39,003 bases of DNA from a virus: positions 1 to 39,003 of the IMG/VR virus record IMGVR_UViG_3300032285_001348. One strand, given 5' to 3'. Shown piece by piece: positions 17,362 through 34,565 of the stretch (positions are counted from its first letter, which is position 1; the number at the start of each line of letters is the position of its first letter). A model generated the notes under the pieces. That model was not told where the DNA came from and did not search any database. It saw nothing but the letters and a program-made list of their open reading frames with translations. Position numbers and translations under genes: made by a program.

Positions 17362-19839
17362 ATGACAGTTGCCTCGTCGGTGCAACAGCACCCGGCGTCC
17401 GTCGATGCGTACATCAGACACGGGTGGTCGCTTGTACCCATCCCGATGGGGACAAAAGGCCCACGCACTCCTGGGTGGAACATTAAGAGCAACGCGCTCA
17501 AGACGCAGTCCGAGTTGCCGCTCGGCTACGGCATCGGGCTTGCCCACGCTTATAGCGGCACGATGGCCCTCGACATCGACGACTGGGGTATGGCAGGCAC
17601 CCTGCTGCATGAACGCGGCATAGACCTGCAAGCCCTATATACAGCGCCCGATGCAGTCATCATTGACAGTGGCAGACAAGGGCACGGCAAACTGCTTTAT
17701 CAGATGCCCTTCGGCATAGCGCTACCCTCGAAGAAGATCCTGCACACCGGCGTGACAGCATACGAACTACGCTGCGCCACCAGCAACGGCCTCACCGTGC
17801 AGGATGTGCTGCCGCCTAGTATCCACCCAGATACCCGGCAGCCTTATCGCTGGGCAGGCAGTGGCAACTGGATGCGTTTGCCTGTGATCCCGCAGCCCTT
17901 GCTTGATCTGTGGCAGTCGATGCTCACCCAAGACAAAGAGCGCACGATCAGTACTGATGGTGCGGTGGACGCATCGTGGGAAGAGATCCGTCAAGCCATC
18001 GAGTTTGTCCCCTCGGACTGTTCGCGTGACGAGTGGGTCAACATCGGCATGGCGATGCATTGGGCGGGGACACAGACAGAGCAGCTTGACCAAGCTCTGC
18101 ACCTCTGGAACGAGTGGAGCGCACAGTCGCAAACCAAGTACCCCGGCGAGAAAGAGATCATCAAGCAGTGGAGCAGCTTCCGCTCGGACAAAGCCACTGC
18201 GGTCAAGCTGGGCACACTCTTTCACATCGCCAAGCAGCACGGGTGGCAACGTCCTGCGCTCGATGTGAGCGATCTGTTCAAAAACATCGCACCCCCAAAA
18301 CTCACCCCCGCTGATCTCACGGCTGGCCTGCGCCCCCAGCCGCCCGAGATTGACCTAGACCTGTGGCCTGCAATCCTAGCGGAGCGGGCACGGCAGATCA
18401 GCGGGGAGATGGGGTGCGATCCACTAGTGCCGCTGTTCGCAGGCATGGCTGCGATCTGCGGGGCTGCTGACTCTCGCTCTCGCCTGGAACTGATCCCTCG
18501 GTTCCAAGTGCCGCCTGTGTTGTGGCTGATGACGATCGGTAGCCCTGCGCTCAAGAAGAGCCCAGGCTCAAAGCCCATGCTCAAGGTGTTGCCCGAGATT
18601 GAGTACGAGGATCGTCCACGGTATCAGAAAGAACTGCTGGCATGGGAGGGCAAAGAGGCAGCATACAGTGCGGCGAAGAAGTCATTCCTAGACTGGTCAG
18701 CCTCACCCGATGCACTACTGGGTGCAGACCAAGCGCCCCATGTGCCCGAGATGCCCGCGCAGCCCGTGCCCGTCAAGATCACGATCGGCGACATCACGAG
18801 TCAGAAGATGGTGCGTAGCGCAGCCGATCGTCCTCGCGGCCTGCTGCTGCACCTTGACGAAATGAACTCATGGATCAGGAAGCTCACCGACAAGTCAAGC
18901 GGTGATGATCGGTCGGCATGGGTTGTGTCGTATGAATCCGATCGGTATGAGATGGATCGCGTGGGTGCTGGCAGCATCCATTGCGAGAACCTCGCCGTCA
19001 GCATCTACGCCAACGTGCAGCCTGAGATCTATCGGCAGAGTGTGGCTGCACTGGCCGCTGACGGCCTGCTCCAGCGGTTCATCCCCGCAGTGCTGCGTGA
19101 ACGGGATTGGGGCATCGGTGACCCCATCCCCGACTTTCTGACCAACATCAGCGCCTGGGAAAACACGGTGCGCCTCGTGTACTCGCTGCCCGCGCAGACG
19201 TACAAATTGAGCCCCGAAGCATACGAGGTGTTTCGGGATTTCCAGCGTTGGTACAACCAAGCCAAGCAGGACGAGGTGCTACTGCGTAGCGGGGGGACTT
19301 TTCTGACCGCTTTTGGCAAATTAGAGGGCACCGTTGGCCGTTTGGCTCTGCTGTGGCACATGATGGAAAGCCCTTTCTCGCCCACGGTGAGCGCCGATGT
19401 GATTGAACGTGTGGTGCGATTCATCAAAGGTTATGTGATCCCGGCCTACCGCTACGCTTATGGTGAGATGGGCACCACGTTCGAGGAGTGGGTCGTAGAC
19501 TATGTGATCCAGTACGCCGACAAGCCCATCCTGACCCTGTCCGAGATTAAGCGCAGTGCCCGTAGGCAGCTAGAGGGTAAGAACAACTGGCTGCAAGACC
19601 AATGGGTGCTTGGTGCGATGCAGGTGCTCGAAGAAGCGCAGTATGTGATCCGCATGGATGATGGCAGCAAGGAGCACCTGCATCAGGCACAGTGGGCGAT
19701 CGACCCTAGGCTCGTGACGATGTTCGCCGACTACCGGGTGAGCGTGATCCGCGCCAAGCAGCGGCAGAAGGACGACATCTACAAGCTGTCCACGAAAGAA
19801 AAGCCCCGAGTCTACGGGGCCGACATTTTAGCGGGCTAA
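17362..19839 (+). CDS. Primase-helicase: PrimPol, PriCT and DUF3987 domains
   Basis: The protein has 825 aa. Residues about 10-180 are a bifunctional primase/polymerase domain: LDIDDW (Asp71, Asp73), SGRQGHGKLLY (His108) and YELRC (Glu135) are the expected catalytic residues, followed by DVLPPSIHPDTRQPYRW. Residues about 205-275 match PriCT (AIEFVPSDCSRDEWVNIGMA). Residues about 330-780 match the helicase-like DUF3987 domain: GSPALKKS (393-400) is a Walker A variant and LLLHLDEMNSW (Asp499-Glu500) is Walker B. It is the only plus-strand gene between two minus-strand clusters, with its own promoter candidate. Its end overlaps the convergent 47-aa gene by 12 bases. Confidence 0.88.
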   Translation: MTVASSVQQHPASVDAYIRHGWSLVPIPMGTKGPRTPGWNIKSNALKTQSELPLGYGIGLAHAYSGTMALDIDDWGMAGTLLHERGIDLQALYTAPDAVIIDSGRQGHGKLLYQMPFGIALPSKKILHTGVTAYELRCATSNGLTVQDVLPPSIHPDTRQPYRWAGSGNWMRLPVIPQPLLDLWQSMLTQDKERTISTDGAVDASWEEIRQAIEFVPSDCSRDEWVNIGMAMHWAGTQTEQLDQALHLWNEWSAQSQTKYPGEKEIIKQWSSFRSDKATAVKLGTLFHIAKQHGWQRPALDVSDLFKNIAPPKLTPADLTAGLRPQPPEIDLDLWPAILAERARQISGEMGCDPLVPLFAGMAAICGAADSRSRLELIPRFQVPPVLWLMTIGSPALKKSPGSKPMLKVLPEIEYEDRPRYQKELLAWEGKEAAYSAAKKSFLDWSASPDALLGADQAPHVPEMPAQPVPVKITIGDITSQKMVRSAADRPRGLLLHLDEMNSWIRKLTDKSSGDDRSAWVVSYESDRYEMDRVGAGSIHCENLAVSIYANVQPEIYRQSVAALAADGLLQRFIPAVLRERDWGIGDPIPDFLTNISAWENTVRLVYSLPAQTYKLSPEAYEVFRDFQRWYNQAKQDEVLLRSGGTFLTAFGKLEGTVGRLALLWHMMESPFSPTVSADVIERVVRFIKGYVIPAYRYAYGEMGTTFEEWVVDYVIQYADKPILTLSEIKRSARRQLEGKNNWLQDQWVLGAMQVLEEAQYVIRMDDGSKEHLHQAQWAIDPRLVTMFADYRVSVIRAKQRQKDDIYKLSTKEKPRVYGADILAG

Positions 19840-19971: not shown

Positions 19972-20945
19972 AAGTGGCTCACATCAATCACTTGACCACG
20001 GAACTGGATATGATTGTCCGAGAACTTCTGCGCGACCTCCGGGTACAAGAGTTCACCATCCTTGAAAGTCAAGACCGCGAAGCCGCTGCGCCAGTTCGTC
20101 GGACTGTCTTCGAGATAATCTATGAACTGCGGCCCGTCGGTGTCCGCCAGGGTGCCAGTATCGACCCCATACCGTGTTCCATTGTAGTCGGAGTACGGAG
20201 TCACCTTCAGCGAATGGAGGTGTCCGGTTACGATTGTTTTGCCGCCGCTTACAGTATTGTTGTGAGTTGCATGGATGCCACCCTTGTAGCGGTGCTTGAC
20301 CACCACCTTATCCGTGAGCCAAGTAGACCAGCAGGCAACCCATGCTGGAAAATGATCTTTGAGGTGGAACCCTCCTACCCCCTCGAACTCGGGGGCATTC
20401 TGAGCGAGACGGTTCTCGAACCGCGCGTCGTGATTGCCTAGAGGCCAGATTAACTGGCAGTTGTGCCGCGCTGCTTTAGCGGCCTCTTCAATCTCGCCAA
20501 GACACGCTTCGCACGCTTTAAGCTCTTGAATGATTGACGGCTTTGAGTCCCAGCCAATACGAGGGTAGCGGCTAATTGACGCCCCATCAAACGCATCGCC
20601 GTTGTTGATAACAGCTTTCGGTTGCAGTTCTTTGATTGCCCAGAGCAACCCTTTGAATGCGGTGCTGCGGATTCCAGGCCAGAAGTGCGCGTCGGAGAAC
20701 ACCAACACGGTGCCATTTTCAATGCCCGCATGATGTCGACCTTTGTGATGATGCGCTGTTTGTAGGTGTTTGTACTGATCGCTTTTTACAGCAAGTTCGA
20801 TTTTGTGTTTGAGTTCTATTCGACGTCGGCGGCGCATAAGACCGCGTACATTCATATCAAGATCTTTTGCCATCTTGTCGGAGTTACCCCCACAAGAGCG
20901 CCAAGTTTCGATGAACTCGTCGTCACTAATTCTTGGCTTGGGCAT
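19968..20945 (-). CDS. Calcineurin-like metallophosphoesterase with N-terminal helix-turn-helix
   Basis: The protein has 325 aa. Residues 6-45 look like a helix-turn-helix (ISDDEFIETWRSCGGNSDKM then AKDLDMNVRGLMRRRRRIE). The catalytic domain shows all metal motifs: SDAHFWPG (Asp85, His87), NNGDAFDG (Asp117), LGNHDARFE (Asn171, His172) and TGHLHS (His242, His244). Enzymes of this family act on phosphodiesters, often DNA ends or nucleotides; the HTH part suggests a DNA substrate. The ATG at 20945 is chosen because GGAGAAGG lies upstream. The gene overlaps the end of the HEXXH gene by 20 bases. Confidence 0.85.
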   Translation of the reverse strand: MPKPRISDDEFIETWRSCGGNSDKMAKDLDMNVRGLMRRRRRIELKHKIELAVKSDQYKHLQTAHHHKGRHHAGIENGTVLVFSDAHFWPGIRSTAFKGLLWAIKELQPKAVINNGDAFDGASISRYPRIGWDSKPSIIQELKACEACLGEIEEAAKAARHNCQLIWPLGNHDARFENRLAQNAPEFEGVGGFHLKDHFPAWVACWSTWLTDKVVVKHRYKGGIHATHNNTVSGGKTIVTGHLHSLKVTPYSDYNGTRYGVDTGTLADTDGPQFIDYLEDSPTNWRSGFAVLTFKDGELLYPEVAQKFSDNHIQFRGQVIDVSHL

Positions 20946-21294
20946 ACAAAACCTTCTCCAATATGTTAATGACGCCGTGCTCCAGCGCCTCAAGTTGATC
21001 GTCAGTCGTGCGCGGATCTTTTGCGGCTACCATGAAATCCTGTAGCAGCACATGCAGAATTTCATGGAGAGCAGTCTTGCTCAAAGACTCGGATGTGATT
21101 TCTGTACCCCCGAAATCGCCGAGTCGATAGGTGGCGAGTTTGGCACCGATGTCAAATTCGATGCTCGCCATAGCGTTCTTCGCGGGCTTCCGGCCTCGTT
21201 CTATGCGCCAGTTGTGAAGCGACAGAACAGTTTGCCAATGCTCAACGTATTGGTCAAATTCTCGTGCTTGATCGGAATCTGGCACATTTTTCAT
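20926..21294 (-). CDS. Putative HEXXH zinc metalloprotein
   Basis: The protein has 122 aa. TALHEILHVLLQDF contains His77-Glu78-x2-His81, the zinc-binding site of zincin metallopeptidases, and Glu102/Glu105/His106 in the next helix (LEALEHGVIN) could be the third ligand. The size and layout recall small SprT-like or phage metallopeptidase-like proteins. No signal peptide is present. Its start lies only 6 bases after a -10-like TATTAT and has no clear ribosome site, so the mRNA may be leaderless. It heads an operon with the phosphoesterase and the 47-aa membrane protein. Confidence 0.7.
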   Translation of the reverse strand: MKNVPDSDQAREFDQYVEHWQTVLSLHNWRIERGRKPAKNAMASIEFDIGAKLATYRLGDFGGTEITSESLSKTALHEILHVLLQDFMVAAKDPRTTDDQLEALEHGVINILEKVLYAQAKN

Positions 21295-21300
21295 ACCAGA

Positions 21301-21328
21301 ATAATAGAAAATATTTTTGACAATTCAA
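21301..21328 (-). promoter_or_regulatory. Candidate promoter for the HEXXH/phosphoesterase operon, possibly leaderless
   Basis: On the minus strand TTGAAT (21328-21323) and TATTAT (21306-21301) stand 16 bases apart. Only six bases (TCTGGT) separate the -10 box from the ATG at 21294, so transcription would begin at or next to the start codon. Confidence 0.55.
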
Positions 21329-21344
21329 CTTATAAATATTGTCA
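21318..21344. promoter_or_regulatory. Candidate operator dyad
   Basis: TGACAAT (21318-21324) and ATTGTCA (21338-21344) form perfect 7-bp inverted arms around a 13-bp AT-rich spacer. The left arm overlaps the -35 box of the promoter at 21301-21328, so a bound dimer would block it. Confidence 0.5.
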
Positions 21345-21356
21345 TACTAAATGACT

Positions 21357-21383
21357 AAGGCCCGGATCACCGGGCCTTTTCTT
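21357..21383. terminator. Intrinsic terminator between two accessory operons
   Basis: AAGGCCCGG-ATCA-CCGGGCCTT is a perfect 9-bp hairpin. On the plus strand it is followed by TTCTT for a full terminator. On the minus strand it directly follows the stop codon of the winged-helix gene, where it would end that operon, though the T-run is weaker. Confidence 0.75.
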
Positions 21384-21711
21384 ATGCTGCCAACTGGAGC
21401 AGCGGGTCGTTCATGGCCCGCCGCTTGTCTCTCAAGCGCTTCTGTCGCTCCGCTTGGGTCATCCGCACACGAGCGGCATCTTTGCCCTTACCGAGTTTGT
21501 AGATTTTGATGATGTGCCTTCCCCGCGCATCGGCCTCATAGCGCACGATGTGGGCCGCGCCAAAGCGATGCAGTTCCCGCGTGTACTGATAGATCGTGAC
21601 GAGGTGTAACCCTGTCTCATCTGCCATCTCTTGACAAGTGAGGTCACCCTGGAGCAACAGGGCGCACATCTGGGCATAGAGCACCGCGCCCATCTTGACC
21701 TGTTTACGCAT
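21382..21711 (-). CDS. Winged helix-turn-helix DNA-binding protein
   Basis: The protein has 109 aa. Residues about 10-60 form a winged HTH: QMCALLLQGDLTCQEMADET and GLHLVTIYQYTRELHRF are the HTH, and AAHIVRYEADARGRHIIKIY is the beta wing. The C-terminal 30 residues are strongly basic (TQAERQKRLRDKRRAMND). It could be a transcription regulator or a replication initiator-like factor; it lies in the accessory cluster rather than next to the polymerase. It overlaps the upstream gene by 8 bases and is followed directly by a terminator hairpin. Confidence 0.75.
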   Translation of the reverse strand: MRKQVKMGAVLYAQMCALLLQGDLTCQEMADETGLHLVTIYQYTRELHRFGAAHIVRYEADARGRHIIKIYKLGKGKDAARVRMTQAERQKRLRDKRRAMNDPLLQLAA

Positions 21712-21934
21712 TTTTCTCTCTGAGTTTGTTTTCGATGAGGTGATAAAAGGCCAGCATACCCATGCCCTCGTGACGATCCAGGATGGCTTGATATTCGTCA
21801 GTGGTGAGACTGACCCACGGGCGCGGGGCTAGCTTTGCCTTGATTGCGTCGACGAGCATAGCCCGGTCGAATGCGTCCTCGGGGCTGTCCTCAATCCACC
21901 GCAGGCAGAGGGTGAGTAGTTCGCGTTCAGTCAT
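21704..21934 (-). CDS. Small acidic helical protein, function unknown
   Basis: The protein has 76 aa and is predicted mostly helical (LLTLCLRWIEDSPEDAFDRA, YQAILDRHEGMGMLAFYHLI). It has no motif I recognise. Overlaps of 8 bases at both ends with its neighbours show that it belongs to a tightly coupled three-gene set with the 77-aa protein and the winged-helix protein. AAAGGA lies upstream of the start. Confidence 0.6.
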   Translation of the reverse strand: MTERELLTLCLRWIEDSPEDAFDRAMLVDAIKAKLAPRPWVSLTTDEYQAILDRHEGMGMLAFYHLIENKLREKNA

Positions 21935-22160
21935 GTGTTTTTCCTTTCATGATTACTTCGCTTTCCGTTTCAATCCATACTTTTGCGCCGCACGATAAAG
22001 GCTTGTCCGGACTGTAGAAAATTCGGCTCGGGCCAAGGATCTCTACCTCGTGGGCATAGACGTTGGATTTGTAGGTTTTCACCGTCAGCACGGGGTCAGT
22101 CGCGCCTGTCTTTGCGTTGCTTCTGATGACGTGTTGATTTACATGGACAATGGTTTTCAT
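21927..22160 (-). CDS. Conserved small phage protein, function unknown
   Basis: The protein has 77 aa and looks beta-rich: HVNQHVIRSNAKTGATDPVL, TVKTYKSNVYAHEVEILGPS, then SPDKPLSCGAKVWIETE. I recall proteins with this same series of motifs in many tailed phages, always small and unassigned. AAGGAG lies 8 bases before the ATG, which is the strongest ribosome site in this cluster. It starts a three-gene overlapping set. Confidence 0.7.
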   Translation of the reverse strand: MKTIVHVNQHVIRSNAKTGATDPVLTVKTYKSNVYAHEVEILGPSRIFYSPDKPLSCGAKVWIETESEVIMKGKTHD

Positions 22161-22199
22161 TTGTCTTTCTCCTTAAGATACTTTTTTGTATGTTGCGGG

Positions 22200-22292
22200 T
22201 CATAGGGGTGCGTCCTCGTAGTCCTCGTGACCCAGTGGGACGCGAGTGGGTTGATTGATGGGTATGGGTTGGGGTGGGAAAGGCCAATTCAT
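22200..22292 (-). CDS. Possible 30-aa Pro-rich microprotein
   Basis: The open frame encodes 30 aa beginning MNWPFPPQPIPINQPTRVP and ending with the acidic EDYEDAPL. Its ATG overlaps the stop codon of the 57-aa membrane protein (ATGA), the usual sign of coupling in this genome. There is no recognised family, and the product is very short, so it may not be real. Confidence 0.35.
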   Translation of the reverse strand: MNWPFPPQPIPINQPTRVPLGHEDYEDAPL

Positions 22293-22462
22293 TTTTTCAA
22301 TTCTTTCTCGGGATAAATTGATTTTTGTACATGAGTCAATTCCTTAGCGAAAAGCAGCGTTCCAGTTTCCTCAAGGTCGATCGGATGAAAGAACACAACT
22401 GAGAGCCATGCAAGGGTGAGGCCCAGGACAAGCCCGCAGACAAAACCGATAGCGAATGTCAT
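22289..22462 (-). CDS. 57-aa single-pass membrane microprotein
   Basis: The protein has 57 aa. Residues 3-25 form one membrane helix (FAIGFVCGLVLGLTLAWLSV), followed by a polar tail with ELTHVQKSIYPEKELKK. CTGGAG lies 9 bases before the ATG, inside a weaker copy of the leader repeat shared by the cluster (22471-22482). Function is unknown; its size and topology recall Rz/spanin-like or superinfection-exclusion peptides, but there is no direct evidence for either. Confidence 0.65.
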   Translation of the reverse strand: MTFAIGFVCGLVLGLTLAWLSVVFFHPIDLEETGTLLFAKELTHVQKSIYPEKELKK

Positions 22463-22519
22463 TTTCAATTCTCCAGTGGTTCAGAAAAAGTTTCGGATGC
22501 CTTATAAGAGGCCGAATCC

Positions 22520-22840
22520 TCAATTGGCGGTCAATGATTCGGGATTTTTCGGCATGACCAAATCGCCTCGCGGTTTGCGCCCACGTTTAGCGGGCACCTT
22601 GGGTTCACCCAGTGGCGGGATAAACGATTCGTGCAGGGCGGGTGCGAGCGCTTCGATGGTGCCCAGTACGTCGACCAGTCGCAGCACCGATGCGTTGGGT
22701 GACCGTTCACCGGTCACCCACTTGTGGAACGTGTACAGGGGGACGCCGAGGTAAGCTGCGGCGCGGGGTTCATCAAGGGACAAGCGGGTCATCAGGGCTG
22801 CGAATTCGGGCCTGGGTGCGGGTTTGATAGAAGTGGACAT
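22520..22840 (-). CDS. Helix-turn-helix regulator with AT-hook-like tail
   Basis: The protein has 106 aa. Residues about 23-60 match a Cro/XRE-type helix-turn-helix (EPRAAAYLGVPLYTFHKWVT, then GERSPNASVLRLVDVLG). Near the C-terminus, residues 85-92 read KRGRKPRG, very like an AT-hook (core RGR-P), which binds the minor groove of AT-rich DNA. It is the best candidate in the genome for the protein that acts on the ACCC-N3-GGGT sites. It follows a strong terminator (22861-22890) after the upstream genes, and the leader has a diverged copy of the repeat (22848-22860). Confidence 0.7.
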   Translation of the reverse strand: MSTSIKPAPRPEFAALMTRLSLDEPRAAAYLGVPLYTFHKWVTGERSPNASVLRLVDVLGTIEALAPALHESFIPPLGEPKVPAKRGRKPRGDLVMPKNPESLTAN

Positions 22841-22860
22841 AGGTAGGATTCCAATGGGTC

Positions 22861-22890
22861 AAAAAAGCCCGCCAGGGGGATCCTGGCGGG
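22861..22890 (-). terminator. Intrinsic terminator upstream of the HTH gene
   Basis: On the minus strand CCCGCCAGG-ATCCC-CCTGGCGGG is a perfect 9-bp hairpin followed by CTTTTTT. It would stop transcription coming from the genes at 22912-25424, 20 bases before the start of the helix-turn-helix gene, so that gene should depend on readthrough or on antitermination. Confidence 0.85.
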
Positions 22891-22911
22891 TGCGGGTTGC
22901 AGGGATGGGGA

Positions 22912-22974
22912 TTAGAGGTCTAGTGCGTGACGGATGATTAGTACAGCCACCGCGACAAGAATGAACGTCACCAT
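22912..22974 (-). CDS. Possible 20-aa membrane peptide
   Basis: A 20-aa open frame (MVTFILVAVAVLIIRHALDL) starts at an ATG that overlaps the stop codon of the upstream 100-aa gene (TAATG). Nearly the whole peptide is one hydrophobic helix. It ends just before the terminator at 22861-22890. The coupling and the composition favour a real peptide, but the length is at the limit of what can be supported. Confidence 0.4.
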   Translation of the reverse strand: MVTFILVAVAVLIIRHALDL

Positions 22975-23276
22975 TAAGTGCGTTCCTCACCCAACGCACC
23001 CTGAATACGTTCCAGTAGATTTTGGAAAAATTCAGGGGCATAGTCGGTGTTTTTGGCATGGTCTTCTACGAATGCCAACGCAACCCGCAGGGTATCCCGC
23101 AGGGATTCACTCTGTTCAAGGGATTGGGTTTTCTCATAGTGCAGCCGATCACACTCAGCATCAAGGTCAGCGATGCGGGCGAACAATGCAGCCGTGCCGG
23201 TGTAGCCCTCAGCGTATGCGAGTCGCTCCGCTTCGTCGGCGGGTAGGGTTTGTAGGTCGATCACGCGAGGGTTCAC
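22974..23276 (-). CDS. Coiled-coil protein of the accessory cluster
   Basis: The protein has 100 aa. I chose the GTG at 23276 because AAAGGGGG lies 6 bases upstream and the codon overlaps the previous stop (GTGA); a longer frame to 23324 has no ribosome site. Residues about 30-80 are a charged helix with heptads (ARIADLDAECDRLHYEKTQS, LEQSESLRDTLRVALAFVED). I do not recognise the family. Confidence 0.6.
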   Translation of the reverse strand: MNPRVIDLQTLPADEAERLAYAEGYTGTAALFARIADLDAECDRLHYEKTQSLEQSESLRDTLRVALAFVEDHAKNTDYAPEFFQNLLERIQGALGEERT

Positions 23277-23524
23277 GCCAGACCCCCTTTCCACACCGAA
23301 CCGAGATCCGCCCAGGTTTTCCACGATTCGACGATATGAGTGCCGTAACGCGGTTTGGTCGTGCGGATATTGACGCGGATCATTTCAGACCGTTGACGTG
23401 CAACACGCTGAACTTGTTCAGCCTGTTCAATCGTGTCGCATTCAACGATCATTTTGTTAATGCGATCGGAGGCATAGCCCCAGCCCGACATAAATTTATC
23501 AGTCATCGTGACATAGAGTTTCAT
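23273..23524 (-). CDS. Conserved small phage protein, function unknown
   Basis: The protein has 83 aa with the segments MTDKFMSGWGYASDRINKMI, VECDTIEQAEQVQRVARQRS and MIRVNIRTTKPRYGTHIVES. I recall this order of motifs (FMSGWG, a C-D-T turn, a helix, then the strand with TTKP) in many phage proteins with no known function. Its leader has a full copy of the repeat (23534-23559) with GGAG nine bases before the ATG. It overlaps the next gene by 4 bases (GTGA). Confidence 0.7.
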   Translation of the reverse strand: MKLYVTMTDKFMSGWGYASDRINKMIVECDTIEQAEQVQRVARQRSEMIRVNIRTTKPRYGTHIVESWKTWADLGSVWKGGLA

Positions 23525-23551
23525 GGTTTCATGCTCCAGTGGGTTACAGGG

Positions 23552-23815
23552 TTACAGGGAAAGGTACTTTTTCTCAGCCCGACGCATGGCACGATATTCG
23601 CGTCGAATCAGGTCGATCAAGGGTGCACTGCCACCCCAAATCAACGTAGGGCCACGGCACTCCAGTCGTTCGCACACTTGGGCACCGTCGTCAAAGCGCA
23701 CATACCCGCCGCTGCGGGGTGCGAACACTTCGAACTCGATGGGGGTGCCATCGAGTCGGTGGGGATAGCGCACCAAGGCGCGATTGTGTTCTAGGTGCTT
23801 AAAGTAAGCTCGCAT
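23552..23815 (-). CDS. Small accessory protein, function unknown
   Basis: The protein has 87 aa, mixed alpha/beta with a basic C-terminal helix (LIDLIRREYRAMRRAEKKYL). The middle (PRSGGYVRFDDGAQVCERLE) is beta-like. GGGAGG lies 8 bases before the ATG and comes from the end of the upstream gene. Its last Leu codon and stop (CTGTAA) lie in the repeat that leads the next gene. No family recognised. Confidence 0.6.
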   Translation of the reverse strand: MRAYFKHLEHNRALVRYPHRLDGTPIEFEVFAPRSGGYVRFDDGAQVCERLECRGPTLIWGGSAPLIDLIRREYRAMRRAEKKYLSL

Positions 23816-23818
23816 GAT

Positions 23819-23962
23819 TCAAGCCTCCCAGATGGCGTAGTTTTTGGGCATCCGTTGAATTCCGTGCTGGGCACGGAATCGGGAAACAGCATCCCGCTTA
23901 TTTGTGCCGTAAATGGTCATGGTGTAAACCCAACCGGGAATGTGAATAGCAAACGATCGCAT
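23819..23962 (-). CDS. 47-aa conserved small phage protein
   Basis: The protein has 47 aa: a strand (FAIHIPGWVYTMTIYGTNKR), a helix (DAVSRFRAQHG) and a final RMPKNYAIWEA. I recall similar strand-helix-strand small proteins with an RxP...W end in other phages, with no function. The ATG follows the full leader repeat (GGAG plus 8 bases). The stop codon lies 3 bases before the start of the 87-aa gene, for which this gene supplies the ribosome site. Confidence 0.7.
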   Translation of the reverse strand: MRSFAIHIPGWVYTMTIYGTNKRDAVSRFRAQHGIQRMPKNYAIWEA

Positions 23963-23980
23963 AATATGTGCTCCAGTGGG

Positions 23981-24130
23981 TTACAGGGTGAACAGGAACA
24001 GAATGAAAGCGTACAGGGCGAGTGCTGCGACGACAGCACCCAGGACGACTTGAAGGGTGCTGGGTTCGCGTCTAGCCCGCTCGATGGGTTCGGGGTGTAG
24101 ATCGACGTAGGTGAGACGGTGACGGGACAT
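23981..24130 (-). CDS. 49-aa tail-anchored membrane microprotein
   Basis: The protein has 49 aa. Residues 1-25 are polar and basic (MSRHRLTYVDLHPEPIERAR), and residues about 26-48 form one membrane helix (LQVVLGAVVAALALYAFILF) that runs to the C-terminus. It has the leader repeat (24139-24151) with GGAG 8 bases before the ATG. Its last codons CTG-TAA are part of the leader repeat of the next gene, so gene and repeat are joined without a gap. Confidence 0.7.
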   Translation of the reverse strand: MSRHRLTYVDLHPEPIERARREPSTLQVVLGAVVAALALYAFILFLFTL

Positions 24131-24160
24131 GGTAGGTGCTCCAGTGGGTTAGGGTTAAAT

Positions 24161-24182
24161 GGCCCAGGGTTGACCCTAGGCC
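24161..24182 (-). terminator. Terminator-like hairpin
   Basis: GGCCCAGGGT and ACCCTAGGCC form a 10-bp stem with one wobble pair. On the minus strand it lies just after the 113-aa gene and is followed by ATTTAA. It could end or slow transcription between the 113-aa gene and the 49-aa gene. Confidence 0.5.
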
Positions 24183-24191
24183 AGGCGAAAC

Positions 24192-24533
24192 TTAATCGAC
24201 GGCCTTGACGTATCCGTCAGCGTCAATGACAACACGGCTGCCGTCGAAAAACTCGTAAACACCATCTGCGACGAGTTCAAAGCGCTCGTGTTCGGAATAG
24301 AAAAAGTCTTCGGGTGTAACGTGCAAGTGCCCATTGATGTATTTATCAGCGATTGTACCGACCCGAAACTCAGATCCGCTCACATAGATCAGCGAACCAT
24401 CAAAGAGCTCGTAGACAGTCGCCTCCCCGTCCCAGTCTTGAACGAGTGAGCACGAGTGATGATCGGCGAGTCGCTGGGCTTGTGCTTTAGCGCCATGCTC
24501 GTACAGCGCGACAATGTTTTCTGCTTGGGACAT
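24192..24533 (-). CDS. Small acidic accessory protein, function unknown
   Basis: The protein has 113 aa and is acidic. An N-terminal helix (AENIVALYEHGAKAQAQRLA) is followed by two related beta units: ATVYELFDGSLIYVSGSEF at about 38-56 and DGVYEFFDGSRVVIDADGY at about 90-108. Both carry the pattern Y-E-L/F-F-D-G-S, so the second half looks like an internal duplication. It has the leader repeat with GGAG 8 bases before the ATG. No known family. Confidence 0.65.
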   Translation of the reverse strand: MSQAENIVALYEHGAKAQAQRLADHHSCSLVQDWDGEATVYELFDGSLIYVSGSEFRVGTIADKYINGHLHVTPEDFFYSEHERFELVADGVYEFFDGSRVVIDADGYVKAVD

Positions 24534-24581
24534 AGTAAGTGCTCCAGTGGGTTAACGATTACAGGGACGAGTAACTATAGA

Positions 24582-24650
24582 TCAATCACCCGCTGGGTGA
24601 TTGAATTTGTTTCTATGGACAGGCCAGGCCTCATAGGGAAATCCTATGGG
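24582..24650. other. Structured intergenic region with nested hairpins
   Basis: TCAATCACCC-GCT-GGGTGATTGA (24582-24604) is a perfect 10-bp hairpin whose centre is a copy of the ACCC-N3-GGGT palindrome. A second set follows: CTATG (24613-24617) can pair with CATAG (24632-24636), which can also pair with CCTATG (24643-24648), so two folds compete. A short AGGCC-A-GGCCT palindrome lies between. It separates the 70-aa gene from the 113-aa gene, and could act as an attenuator or terminator. Confidence 0.6.
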
Positions 24651-24665
24651 CCCAGGTTTTGCCAA

Positions 24666-24878
24666 TCAGCCGAAATAGAGGACATCGACTTGATGCGTCG
24701 CGGCTTGAATGACTCCAACGATTTCGCACGAGTCGCAGTCGGGCATGAGTCGGATGAGATCGTCCGCTGCGCGGATGACTCGCAGACAATCAATAGCGCA
24801 CCCATCGGTTTCGTCCATTCCCAGAATGTCGCTATCAAAGTGCATCCACCGCGAAGAGAGGATTTCGGAAAGTTTCAT
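24666..24878 (-). CDS. Small accessory protein, function unknown
   Basis: The protein has 70 aa. The ATG at 24878 is preferred because the leader-repeat core TGGAGCAC lies 8 bases upstream; a longer frame to 24920 would ignore it. The sequence is acidic and mixed (ILGMDETDGCAIDCLRVIRA, LIRLMPDCDSCEIVGVIQAA), with three cysteines and no classic metal motif. No family recognised. Confidence 0.6.
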   Translation of the reverse strand: MKLSEILSSRWMHFDSDILGMDETDGCAIDCLRVIRAADDLIRLMPDCDSCEIVGVIQAATHQVDVLYFG

Positions 24879-24946
24879 AGTGTGTGCTCCAGTTTCTGCG
24901 GGATTCGCATTCCAATGCACCCATCGAAAGGTGCATCAGAATGGAA

Positions 24947-25132
24947 TCAGACAATGAAGTCGGGATGATTTGTGACTTCGAAGATTTCAGCCCAGCGCAT
25001 CAATTGAACACGCGAGGTTTTGGTGCGGGCTGCGCGGATCAGCGCGGAAAGGCCGCGAGCTACAACGTCTTTCATGTTTCCCGCGTTGTATTGGGAAAGG
25101 TTTGTGACTTCGCGGATTTCGGATTTAGTCAT
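24947..25132 (-). CDS. Small helical accessory protein, function unknown
   Basis: The protein has 61 aa, basic and helical (TKSEIREVTNLSQYNAGNMK, VVARGLSALIRAARTKTSRV). It could be a small nucleic-acid-binding protein, but no motif is clear. The leader repeat with GGAG 8 bases before the ATG supports expression. The following 68 bases before the 70-aa gene are non-coding. Confidence 0.6.
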   Translation of the reverse strand: MTKSEIREVTNLSQYNAGNMKDVVARGLSALIRAARTKTSRVQLMRWAEIFEVTNHPDFIV

Positions 25133-25175
25133 GATGAGTGCTCCAATGGGTTAACGATTACAGGGGCGGGGTGAA

Positions 25176-25424
25176 TCAGTAGCCGAACATCCAGATGGGC
25201 AGGGCTTGTTTGCGAATCAGGCTGGCACGGGTTTTGGGGTGAAGGAACGCCACATCCATCCACTTGTAGTGCGCTTCGATGGCGACATCGTGGGCGAGCA
25301 TGGCATCTTGGGCGAGCTTGTCGGCGCCGCCGAAAGTGGAGGCCATCAGAGCGTGGCGGGCGAGGGCGAGCTTCGCAGCATGGCGAGCTGCTTCTGCTTT
25401 GGTGAGGCATTCGGTTTTGGTCAT
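25176..25424 (-). CDS. Small helical accessory protein, first gene of the cluster
   Basis: The protein has 82 aa and is rich in Ala, with long helices (CLTKAEAARHAAKLALARHA, GADKLAQDAMLAHDVAIEAH) and a C-terminal basic segment with WMFGY. It starts five bases after the GGAG of a leader-repeat copy (25430-25440), a shorter distance than elsewhere. It is the first gene after the promoter at 25458-25485, so it should be the most strongly expressed early product. No family recognised. Confidence 0.65.
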   Translation of the reverse strand: MTKTECLTKAEAARHAAKLALARHALMASTFGGADKLAQDAMLAHDVAIEAHYKWMDVAFLHPKTRASLIRKQALPIWMFGY

Positions 25425-25457
25425 CAGTGCTCCAGTAGGTGCGTTGTTGAAGTCTCA

Positions 25458-25485
25458 ATGATACCCAGTGGGTTGCACGAGTCAA
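25458..25485 (-). promoter_or_regulatory. Strong candidate promoter for the accessory cluster with an embedded operator
   Basis: On the minus strand TTGACT (25485-25480) and TATCAT (25463-25458) stand 16 bases apart, each matching the sigma70 consensus at 5 of 6 positions. The spacer holds ACCCACTGGGT (25473-25463), a copy of the repeated palindrome, so a protein bound there would block RNA polymerase. The first start codon, 25424, is 34 bases downstream of the -10 box. Confidence 0.7.
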
Positions 25486-25985
25486 GAAATCAATTCCAAT
25501 CAAACCCAGCGGGTCAATAGGAATTCTCTATCCCACTGGGTCTAGTGCGTTGGGGGTGTGACAACTGCACTAGCGGCGAGGGGTAGGGTTTTGAGATTCT
25601 GAAAAATCTGTGCTTTTCAAAAAAGTCGTGGGACAAACCTAGAACCCGCGGAAGCCGGTTGTCACACTCGCCGCCCTGAACCCACTGGAGTCGTTCCAGC
25701 GGGTCAATAGCACCCGCTGGGTCAATGGTTCACTTACCCGCTGGGTTCCCGAGTACCCGCTGGGTTGAGTGCTCATCCGCTGCGTTGCACCACGACCCAG
25801 CGGGTTTCCGTTGTGCGTTGCACCACGACCCAGCGGGTTTCCGTTGTGCGTTGCACCACGGCCTGGGGCGACCTGGATTCCCTGGCCGACGGGGGCCGGG
25901 TAGGGCCGGCGCAACTGGCCTGCGGCTACGGTGGCACCACGAACCATTTTTTAAATTTTTCAAAATAAGCAGTTACCCACCGGGT
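25463..25985. repeat. Array of ACCC-N3-GGGT palindromes
   Basis: Copies of ACCC-N3-GGGT (spacers AGT, AGC, GCT or ACC) are at 25463-25473, 25504-25514, 25712-25722, 25736-25746, 25755-25765, 25795-25805, 25828-25838 and 25975-25985. One-base variants are at 25531-25541 (TCCC), and weaker ones at 25694-25704 and 25775-25785. Another full copy is at 24588-24598. The flank GGGTCAAT is kept at three sites. The arms are short but the repeat count and the clustering in a non-coding region are far above chance. Confidence 0.85.
25781..25860. repeat. 33-bp tandem repeat, two and a half copies
   Basis: The unit at 25781-25813, beginning TGCGTTGCACCACGACCCAG, is repeated exactly at 25814-25846, and a third, diverging copy begins at 25847. 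Each full unit carries one ACCCAGCGGGT palindrome. Confidence 0.9.
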
Positions 25986-26038
25986 TCCGAAATCCCATTA
26001 ACACACCGCCGGTCAGTTATGCTAGGATCAGTGCCACT

Positions 26039-26572
26039 ATGGAAAAGCCCATCGCACAATCCATAGGCGCAGATGTATCGCTGCCAGACTGGCTTACTGC
26101 CGGTGACCCTGCGCCTATCAAGCCCTCTCGGGAGGCTAGAGTGCTTGTGTTTCAACAGTTTGAGACTGTCTTCCCTCGCGTGATTGACCTGATCGCATCG
26201 GGCTACACGCTGACCAGCGCGGTCAAGGAAGTGCCCTACGGGATTGATCTCGGAGCGTTCACCCGCTGGATCAAAAAAGACCCCACGCGCAACGAGTTGT
26301 ACAAAGAGGCCAAGGAGATCCGCACCGAGGCCTGGGCGGGTAAGGTCATCGAACACGCCACCGCTGAGGACTCGTTTGAGGATGTAGCGCGATCCAAGCT
26401 GATCGTCGATGCCTACAAGTGGCTGATGGCTGCGGACAATCGCAAGACTTACGGCCAATCGACCCAGATCGAGTTGGGTGGGCAGATTAGTATCTTGGGA
26501 GCGTTGGCTGCGGCTAACGAGCGCACACTCGAACTGGTTGAGGATGTGACACCTCGCCTTGAAAACGACTAA
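26039..26572 (+). CDS. Terminase small subunit
   Basis: The protein has 177 aa. Residues about 55-80 (IASGYTLTSAVKEVPYGIDL, then GAFTRWIKKD) form the helix-turn-helix that recognises the packaging site, followed by a long helix (YKEAKEIRTEAWAGKVIEHA) for ring assembly and a C-terminal helix ending in charged residues that contact the large subunit. This order and the place directly before the large subunit (TAATG overlap) are typical. AGGA lies 11 bases upstream. It is the first late gene on the plus strand after the control region. Confidence 0.82.
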   Translation: MEKPIAQSIGADVSLPDWLTAGDPAPIKPSREARVLVFQQFETVFPRVIDLIASGYTLTSAVKEVPYGIDLGAFTRWIKKDPTRNELYKEAKEIRTEAWAGKVIEHATAEDSFEDVARSKLIVDAYKWLMAADNRKTYGQSTQIELGGQISILGALAAANERTLELVEDVTPRLEND

Positions 26573-28113
26573 TGCAAAAACTCAGATACAGCGCAGAAGA
26601 AGAGCAACTGTTGATGGCGCAGTTGTGGTCTGCTCAGATTAAAGATGACCCAGAGGCTTTTGTATTGTTCTGTTTCCCGTGGGGGCAGGCCAACACACCA
26701 CTAGAGCGATTCAAAGGGCCGCGTAAATGGCAAAGAGAAACTCTTCGGGACATCAGGGATTTCATTCGTGAGAATCGAGACAAGTTGTCGCAAGAGGCGC
26801 TGATCGACGCGATGCGGCAAGCCGTGTCGTCTGGCCGGGGTGTGGGGAAGTCGGCACTGGTTAGCTGGCTCATCCTGTGGATGCTGACAACTCGGATCGG
26901 TAGCTCCGTCATCGTGTCGGCTAACAGCGAGGCGCAGCTTAGAAAAGTCACTTGGGGTGAGTTGACTAAGTGGGCCACCATGAGCCTGAACGCTCATTGG
27001 TGGGAGCCGACGGCTACGAGCCTTCAGCCCGCGCAGTGGCTATCCGAACTCGTCGAGCGTGACCTCAAGAAGGGCACCCGGTACTGGGGCGCTGAGGGGA
27101 AGCTCTGGAGCGAGGAAAATCCTGACGCCTATGCCGGTGTGCACAACATGGACGGCATGATGGTGATTTTCGATGAGGCGTCGGGTATCCCGGATAGCAT
27201 CTGGTCAGTGGCTGCGGGCTTCTTTACAGAGAACATTTTGGATCGGTATTGGCTGGCGTTCAGTAACGGTCGGCGAAACACCGGGTACTTCTACGAGGCG
27301 GTGGACGGGTCAAAGCGGGATTTCTGGCGGTCAAAGAAGATTGACGCTCGGCAGGTCGAGGGCACCGACAAGTCGATCTACCAGCAGATCATCGAGGAGT
27401 ACGGCGAGGACAGCGACGAGGCTCGCGTCGAGGTCTATGGGGACTTCCCCAAAAGCGGGGCTGACCAGTTCATCGGGCCGTATCTGGTCGATGACGCCAT
27501 GAAGCGGCCCAAGTACAAAGACCCGTCAGCACCCATCGTCGTTGGCGTTGACCCCGCTCGCGGGGGTATGGACTCGACCGTGATCGTGGTGCGCCAAGGG
27601 CGTGACATCGTGGCGATCAAACGCTACAAGGGGGACGACACCATGACCACCGTGGGTAACGTCATCGACACCATTGAGGAGTACCGCCCCGCGCTGACCG
27701 TAATCGACGAGGGTGGGCTGGGCTATGGGATCCTTGACAGACTGACCGAGCAGAAGTACAAAGTGCGCGGTGTCAACTTTGGCTGGAAAGCGAAAAACCC
27801 GGTCATGTGGGGTAACAAGCGAGCCGAGATGTGGGGAGCCATGCGAGACTGGCTCAAGACGGCCAGCTTGCCCCAGGACAGAATGCTCAAAGCCGATCTA
27901 GTTGGGCCGATGAAGAAGCCCAACTCGGCAGGCACTATCTTTCTTGAGGGGAAAAAGGAAATGAAGGCTCGCGGACTGGCCTCGCCCGATGCGGCAGACG
28001 CCTTGGCCGCGACTTTTGCGTTTCCTGTGGCCCACCGCGAGTACAATGATCGAGCAACCCGGCGCGTAAATGCTCAATCGAGTAGCGCCATAACATCTTG
28101 GATGGGATCGTAA
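26572..28113 (+). CDS. terL: Terminase large subunit
   Basis: The protein has 513 aa. The packaging ATPase has Walker A GRGVGKS (88-94, Lys93) and Walker B MMVIFDEAS (Asp201-Glu202). The nuclease domain shows VGVDPARGGMDST (Asp327, Asp334), VIDEGGLG (Asp379) and SPDAADALAA (Asp473, Asp476), the acidic set of the RNase H-like fold. Length and order match P22 gp2-type headful terminases. It uses the small subunit to choose DNA, then cuts and pumps it into the portal. It is followed without a gap by the small basic protein gene. Confidence 0.95.
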   Translation: MQKLRYSAEEEQLLMAQLWSAQIKDDPEAFVLFCFPWGQANTPLERFKGPRKWQRETLRDIRDFIRENRDKLSQEALIDAMRQAVSSGRGVGKSALVSWLILWMLTTRIGSSVIVSANSEAQLRKVTWGELTKWATMSLNAHWWEPTATSLQPAQWLSELVERDLKKGTRYWGAEGKLWSEENPDAYAGVHNMDGMMVIFDEASGIPDSIWSVAAGFFTENILDRYWLAFSNGRRNTGYFYEAVDGSKRDFWRSKKIDARQVEGTDKSIYQQIIEEYGEDSDEARVEVYGDFPKSGADQFIGPYLVDDAMKRPKYKDPSAPIVVGVDPARGGMDSTVIVVRQGRDIVAIKRYKGDDTMTTVGNVIDTIEEYRPALTVIDEGGLGYGILDRLTEQKYKVRGVNFGWKAKNPVMWGNKRAEMWGAMRDWLKTASLPQDRMLKADLVGPMKKPNSAGTIFLEGKKEMKARGLASPDAADALAATFAFPVAHREYNDRATRRVNAQSSSAITSWMGS

Positions 28114-33755: not shown

Positions 33756-34565
33756 ATGAACTACTTAAGCATTAGTTACATTAACGGCCAACTGGTCAAT
33801 GTAACTCATGCTACGACTGGTGCACTCAGCGGCTCCGGTGCAACAATTGCTGGGTCGGCGCAGCACGTTGCCGTTCACGATGCCACTGGTGTTCTGAGCG
33901 GTCAAGGTTCGACAATCAATGGATCGGCTGACCGATCTGCGGGTGCCGGAGCGCACGTTGCCACCGGCACATTGAACGGCCCCGGATCGGCAATTGTCGG
34001 CTCGGCGCAGCACATCGCCACCCACACAACCACGGGTGCACTAAGCGGTCAAGGGACAATCGTCAACGGCTCCGCTGCCCGATTCCATGCCTTTAGCACA
34101 AGCGGAGCACTTAACGGCCCCGGTGCCGCAATCGCCGGTTCCGCTGCCCGGTTCCATGCCTTTAGCACAAGCGGTGCACTGAACGGTCAGGGCTCGGCAA
34201 TTGCAGGTTCCGCTAACCGAATCCGTGCGTTTGACGCCACTGGGTCGCTTTTTGGCCCAGGCGCGAATCTGTCCGGTGTTGCTAGTCGAATCCATTATTT
34301 CACGACATCGGGTGATCTTCTTGGCCCCGGTGCGGCTATTGCCGGTACCGCATCACGACTTGTAAACCATGTGACCACCGGTGCTTTGAACGGCTCCGGT
34401 GCAGCAGTTGCTGGCACCAGCAATCACATCAGTTTGTATCCAAACCCGGACGATGTGCGCGAAGGCGTACAATACGGCCCAGGTGGAATCTATGTCGGCA
34501 CCTTGACCGTGGGTTCTGGCAGGTCAATAATCAGGTTGCGGTCATTCACCGAAGAAGGATCCTAA
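33756..34565 (+). CDS. Repeat protein with nine 23-residue units
   Basis: The protein has 269 aa. From about residue 20 to 230 it is a tandem array of nine units near 23 residues, with the consensus TGALxGxGAxIAGSAxR-hx (for example TSGALNGPGAAIAGSAARFH). Units five and six are nearly identical in DNA as well. The C-terminal 40 residues are different (NPDDVREGVQYGPGGIYVGT), which looks like a conserved attachment or capping part. It is probably a filamentous virion protein, such as a head fibre or tail appendage, but no partner is known. Confidence 0.7.
   Translation: MNYLSISYINGQLVNVTHATTGALSGSGATIAGSAQHVAVHDATGVLSGQGSTINGSADRSAGAGAHVATGTLNGPGSAIVGSAQHIATHTTTGALSGQGTIVNGSAARFHAFSTSGALNGPGAAIAGSAARFHAFSTSGALNGQGSAIAGSANRIRAFDATGSLFGPGANLSGVASRIHYFTTSGDLLGPGAAIAGTASRLVNHVTTGALNGSGAAVAGTSNHISLYPNPDDVREGVQYGPGGIYVGTLTVGSGRSIIRLRSFTEEGS
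33830..34420 (+). repeat. 69-bp tandem repeat coding for the 23-residue units
   Basis: Each unit is about 69 bases and the series covers most of the gene at 33756-34565. The two units around 34080 and 34149 share the long stretch GCCTTTAGCACAAGCGG with only a few changes, so the array is probably prone to expansion or loss. Confidence 0.8.

Follow-up and report, generated by a model that had tools for sequence, protein, structure and literature searches.

In the window, that is the whole analysed stretch of 39,003 nucleotides of viral DNA, an array of ACCCN3GGGT palindromes occupies a gap of 614 bases (25425-26038) between a leftward accessory cluster and the rightward terminase/structural operon. 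This array is probably the centre of a transcriptional switch, in which an XRE regulator that is produced with delay represses the early promoter and acts from a fixed helix face on the late promoter, most simply by activating it. The model is based on sequence comparison of the array, its placement at both promoters, the spacing at the late promoter P_R, a co-occurring helix-turn-helix (HTH) gene with matching changes of the operator word, and a terminator. From these we infer binding by the protein encoded at 22520-22840, repression of the early promoter P_L, activation rather than phased repression of P_R, and the timing.

The record ends in a 123-base direct terminal repeat, and the window therefore corresponds to a circular map of approx. 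38,880 bases. The virus is a podovirus with genes for head closure, portal, P22-like scaffold/head and endolysin on the plus strand, and for helicase, DNA polymerase, single-strand-binding protein and exonuclease on the minus strand. A primase-helicase gene (17362-19839) is located on the plus strand, opposite to the surrounding minus-strand replication genes, unlike the primase/polymerase of DSL-LC05, which is co-oriented with the replication genes. DSL-LC05 (OR003940, Dishui Lake) is the nearest named phage, with 77% identity over 32% of the right half of the window. For comparison, 80 viral contigs were gathered by a large-terminase scan; these loci are related by descent and recombination between them is possible, which makes p-values calculated under independence too small and indicative at most. 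An Rfam search of window positions 20000-27000 gave no match.

Table 1. Location of the regulator gene, operators, promoters and neighbouring features in the window
Feature	Position	Strand	Remarks
XRE-type helix-turn-helix protein, 106 aa, predicted array binder	22520..22840	-	
Leftward accessory genes, P_L to terminator	22859..25424	-	
Intrinsic terminator CCCGCCAGGATCCCCCTGGCGGG-CTTTTTT	22868..22890	-	just upstream of regulator gene
P_L, leftward (early) promoter	25458..25485	-	-35 TTGACT 25485-25480, spacer 16, -10 TATCAT 25463-25458
P_L operator ACCCACTGGGT	25463..25473	-	flush with P_L -10, centre about -17
Array operator ACCCGCTGGGT	25504..25514	-	centre about -58 of P_L
Degenerate array operator TCCCACTGGGT	25531..25541	+	
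Array operator ACCCGCTGGGT	25712..25722	+	
Array operator ACCCGCTGGGT	25736..25746	+	
Array operator ACCCGCTGGGT	25755..25765	+	
Array operator ACCCGCTGGGT	25795..25805	-	within 33-base direct repeat
Array operator ACCCGCTGGGT	25828..25838	-	within 33-base direct repeat
Conserved A/T tract adjoining proximal operator	25947..25968	+	
Proximal operator ACCCACCGGGT	25975..25985	+	37 bases upstream of P_R -10, centre about -55
P_R, predicted late promoter	26020..26028	+	extended -10 TGC-TAGGAT, hexamer 26023-26028; without good -35
Terminase small subunit gene, first of rightward late operon	26039..26572	+	start codon 10 bases past P_R -10

The operator array and the early promoter

Eight exact copies of ACCCN3GGGT are found in the gap, where 0.007 are expected, and 11 in the whole window (0.46 expected); when up to two mismatches are allowed, the window contains 42 matches against 10.6 expected. 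The array is conserved upstream of the terminase, usually with about 4-11 copies, in most relatives for which enough upstream sequence is available, while almost no ACCCN3GGGT is found downstream.

A sequence-only reading had proposed that TTGACT and TATCAT, 16 bases apart, form a sigma70-like promoter with the palindrome in its spacer. The promoter is borne out, as the minus strand from 25485 to 25458 reads TTGACT-CGTGCAACCCACTGGG-TATCAT. The palindrome occupies 10 of the 16 spacer bases, but its last T doubles as the first T of the -10 element, and it is thus flush with this element and not wholly inside the spacer. The promoter was also considered the best of the window; it scores 10/12, but shares this score with a site at 34503-34531 on the plus strand. 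Because the score is shared and the total of promoter-like sites in the window is not above that of shuffled sequence, P_L taken alone in a single genome is weak evidence.

A chance promoter at this position is ruled out by its conservation in the relatives. Promoters scoring at least 10/12 surround 35 of 407 array palindromes when read towards the accessory genes and none of the 407 when read towards the terminase, with control positions at approx. 0.4%. The most distal minus-strand site of the relatives reads TTGACA-N5/6-ACCCANTGGGT-TAGAAT/TATAAT/TACATT/TATCAT, TTGACA with TAGAAT or TATAAT being the most common form. In approx. 35 loci, the palindrome is centred at -17/-18 of a consensus promoter, and in a second class of approx. 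eight loci it lies near -29, one turn further up, where it covers the -35 element and forms part of it (TTGACCCANTGGGT). Accordingly, the gap between palindrome and -10 element is -1/0 in 34 and 10-11 in seven of 45 loci, and 34 of these 45 have a perfect TTGACA. The proposed link of the array to the control of the leftward accessory cluster is thus well supported by comparison, since the promoter-operator layout recurs in dozens of relatives with differing sequences and the putative cognate HTH protein is encoded within that cluster. Repression of P_L by the array-binding protein would be the simplest reading, as the promoter under the site matches the consensus and should be active unaided. 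The relatives also carry a recurrent TAGGGAAAGCACCTAGAA motif (CTAGG-N7-CCTAG type) upstream of the P_L -35 element, between two P_L operators; it is absent from the window and is perhaps a second operator.

Helical-turn spacing at the predicted late promoter

On its other side, the array extends to the rightward terminase/late promoter, from which it is spaced in helical turns, a feature that the sequence-only reading had missed. In nearly all relatives, a TA...T sequence precedes the start codon of the small terminase gene by approx. 12-14 bases. In the window, the predicted -10 element ends 10 bases before this codon and a clear Shine-Dalgarno sequence is missing, which suggests that the late mRNA is nearly leaderless across the family. 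TGn precedes the -10 element in 27 of 38 unique cases, and the -35 elements are mostly poor and somewhat better than those of shuffled sequence. The combination of a poor -35 with a TGn -10 element is as expected of an activated promoter.

In all 50 loci with a proximal palindrome less than 130 bases from the terminase start, the distance between the two is 41-42, 50-53 or 61-62 bases, and no intermediate value occurs. In 31 segments that share less than 80% identity, R is 0.873 for a period of 10.5 bases. The spacing classes are scattered on the TerL tree with many switches between them, and even the diverged operators of L170, L171, L182 and L017 are located 61-62 bases from the start. Such steps of one turn are the signature of a protein that is held on one helix face relative to RNA polymerase. 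Looping among the array copies was rejected as the source of the period, because the spacings between array neighbours, of which the distal pair is dominated by an inherited 59-base spacing, show no period of 10.5.

The simplest reading of these sequence data is that P_R would be activated from the proximal operator. The operator centres, at about -45, -55 and -65, deviate by approx. 3 bases from the classical class I/II positions, which leaves phased repression, or contact with a different protein, as alternative readings.

The predicted regulator gene and the terminator in front of it

The sequence-only reading had also missed the regulator gene, which is located inside the controlled cluster and behind a conserved terminator. 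A single HTH protein is common to the accessory clusters of the window, of DSL-LC05 and of nearly all relatives. It was found in all array-bearing loci whose upstream sequence exceeds about 4 kb, and the loci without a match have either short upstream sequence or no array. The gene is on the minus strand, downstream of the other small P_L genes and within the operon that its product is predicted to control. The 22520-22840 protein is the likely ligand of the array palindrome ACCCN3GGGT, as judged from its co-occurrence with the array and the covariation of recognition helix and repeat; it would bind as a dimer. Rhodoferax phage P26218, which is network-linked to DSL-LC05, was considered and has no regulator homolog.

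The AF2 model of the 106 amino acid protein shows a confident five-helix XRE HTH (core pLDDT 93-97; helices 11-20, 24-31, 35-43, 50-65 and 67-71), followed by a low-confidence tail and without an N-terminal zinc domain. The nearest folds are those of HigA2, MqsA and Aca10 (Z about 7), Aca2 is also among the nearest, and MqsA is the best PDB sequence match. The HTH_3 profile matches 19 of 33 family members (best 2.1e-6), and the window protein itself is not among them.

The relatives L016, L042, L045, L072 and L077 lack ACCCN3GGGT and carry other words in the same gap (AAACATC...GATGTTT, AACCCATTG, TGACN6GTCA, TGTCACA, AGTGAGCACTCACT). Loci with other words and a changed recognition helix are L042, L077, L168/L169 and the L075 and L079 types; KITTWRN pairs with AACCCATTG and PQTTARK with AGTGAGCACTCACT, a covariation that comes from few heterotypic lineages, all of them divergent clades. 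L015/L017 have the typical recognition helix, yet only one exact site. A homolog is absent from L016 (37.4 kb) and L006, which both contain other repeats, and an HTH_3 search for an alternative regulator in L016, L006 and L072 gave no match. Since the layout is retained in L016 and L006, these loci must rely on a different regulator.

Of 36 non-redundant loci, 30 have a strong intrinsic terminator whose end lies 17-35 bases upstream of the regulator gene; it is usually the first strong one of the leftward cluster. The sequence of its stem varies between loci, while its position is kept. The terminator implies that the regulator should be made late, via read-through or antitermination.

The proposed switch, related systems and alternatives

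In the proposed sequence of events, host sigma70 RNA polymerase would initiate at P_L and transcribe the leftward early/accessory cluster. Most transcripts would stop at the terminator (22890-22868), and read-through or antitermination would yield the regulator with delay. Its dimer would then occupy the ACCCN3GGGT sites; at P_L, it would cover the spacer together with the margin of the -10 element and so block RNA polymerase, while from the 25975-25985 copy it would act on P_R from a fixed helix face, most simply as an activator. The terminase and structural genes would thus be switched on while the early genes are switched off, and the remaining array copies may raise local concentration or cooperativity.

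In our best model, the switch would work like phi29 p4 and the operon layout would resemble that of the Aca repressors. In the Bacillus phage phi29, the early protein p4 recognizes several inverted repeats that lie between the early and the late promoters; its sites overlap the early ones, and late transcription starts from a promoter that has a poor -35 element and depends on p4 (PMC3100819). The window sites likewise overlap the early promoter and are also found upstream of a late promoter with a poor -35 element. A homologous regulator was nevertheless rejected: p4 has a novel fold, recognizes a 27-base target (CTTTTT-N15-AAAATG) and works with p6, whereas the present system combines a predicted XRE HTH with an 11-base ACCCN3GGGT target in 5-11 copies. 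In addition, the window promoters are divergent, a terminator precedes the regulator gene, and activation is our reading of the spacing.

Aca2 and Aca10 (PMC9410906, PMC9410881) are small proteins with an XRE-like HTH fold, encoded within the operon they control, and their inverted repeat is inside the core consensus promoter of that operon. The window differs by having many more sites, a predicted action at a second promoter and a terminator before the regulator gene; no named acr was found among the PHROG/Pfam hits of the scanned accessory genes, nearly all of which lack families. MqsA is reported to bind ACCT(N)3AGGT (PMC5422877), which has the same 4-3-4 geometry as the window word ACCC(N)3GGGT; unlike MqsA, the window regulator is a phage gene product without zinc domain and without an MqsR toxin partner.

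Operators between divergent promoters are also characteristic of lambda CI/Cro, where an HTH protein represses one promoter and activates the other, and the window HTH protein is predicted to occupy a comparable position. It differs from CI by the missing C-terminal domain, by operators whose distance from the late promoter is set in fixed turns and by the absence of signs of lysogeny among the window genes scanned.

Negative feedback only, of the Aca or Cro type, is the strongest competitor, though we consider it unlikely. The HTH protein would repress its own early operon via the P_L operator, while the P_R copy would silence or fine-tune late transcription. An HTH gene inside the operon together with an inverted repeat inside a consensus core promoter is what acr-aca operons show (PMC9410906), and the nearest folds include Aca10 and Aca2. 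Aca promoters, however, have one or two repeats and not 5-11 with a turn-phased copy at a divergent late promoter, and simple occlusion far upstream would not predict phasing to the -10 element.

A temperate-type immunity repressor is improbable. The array would then be an immunity region that maintains lysogeny with a specificity differing between phages, and close relatives indeed differ in the repeat word at one conserved place, as heteroimmune phages do. Against this, no integrase or partition gene was found among the window genes scanned, a set covering part of the small genes, DSL-LC05 is predicted to be lytic by its authors (PMC10611076), and a host search in genome contigs returned no prophage and, as sole match, one 3-kb metagenome-assembled contig.

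Even less credit is given to a replication origin with the palindromes as iterons for an initiator and incidental promoters nearby. The long conserved non-coding gap with its A/T tract would fit, as would the inverted repeat GTGTGACAAC...GTTGTCACAC (25556-25565 and 25659-25668, approx. 100 bases apart), which the whole family conserves in this gap, often with TTTCGCGC..GCGAAAA following, and the two inverted DnaA-box-like TTATCCACA beside the distal operators in the upstream gap of L026, L037 and L041. The palindromes are locked to both promoters, however, the co-varying protein is a small repressor-type XRE HTH, and a DnaA-type origin was rejected for the window because its gap contains no DnaA box. 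Finally, a pac/cos packaging site bound by the adjoining small terminase would explain repeats directly upstream of the terminase genes, but is the least credible reading because TerS similarity does not follow the repeats: L016 and L007 have no repeat in common although their TerS are 76% identical, whereas window TerS is only approx. 50% identical to array-type TerS that share its repeat.

The early/late switch preferred here may further represent a widespread, undescribed family in freshwater podoviruses, a generalization that we put forward tentatively and at somewhat less than even confidence. In this family, a tiny XRE protein, delayed by the position of its gene after the first early-operon terminator, would shut off the early genes and turn on the late ones, the distance between operator and late promoter would evolve in whole turns, and the operator sequence would turn over with the recognition helix. 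A narrowly worded literature search found no identical lytic XRE switch. The model would provide a circuit for the early/late decision in abundant, uncultured lake phages, with regulator, operators, both promoters and terminator all mapped. With its dozens of natural variants, the group offers a data set on the co-change of HTH recognition helix and operator and on the permitted operator-promoter distances. Should the layout function as it does in Aca operons, the genes that separate P_L from the terminator would be candidates for host takeover or anti-defence.

The small accessory genes share a leader, ACCCACTGGAGCAC-N(5-7)-ATG, which joins an operator-like arm to a Shine-Dalgarno sequence and is found at the minus-strand gene starts 22462, 23524, 23962, 24130, 24533, 24878, 25132 and 25424. 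The ACCCACTGGAGCAC leaders are possible operators proper, but TGGAG leaders are also present in L072 and other operator-lacking relatives. In layout, they resemble the start-associated sequences of cluster K mycobacteriophages, a repeated element with a Shine-Dalgarno sequence just upstream of small genes (PMC3203893); sequence and host group differ, and in the window the leader is a side feature that shares one arm with the operator. Inside the accessory cluster, TCAATCACCCGCTGGGTGATTGA (24582-24604) is a perfect palindrome with 10-base arms and the operator core, close to a possible internal minus-strand -10 element, TATAGT.
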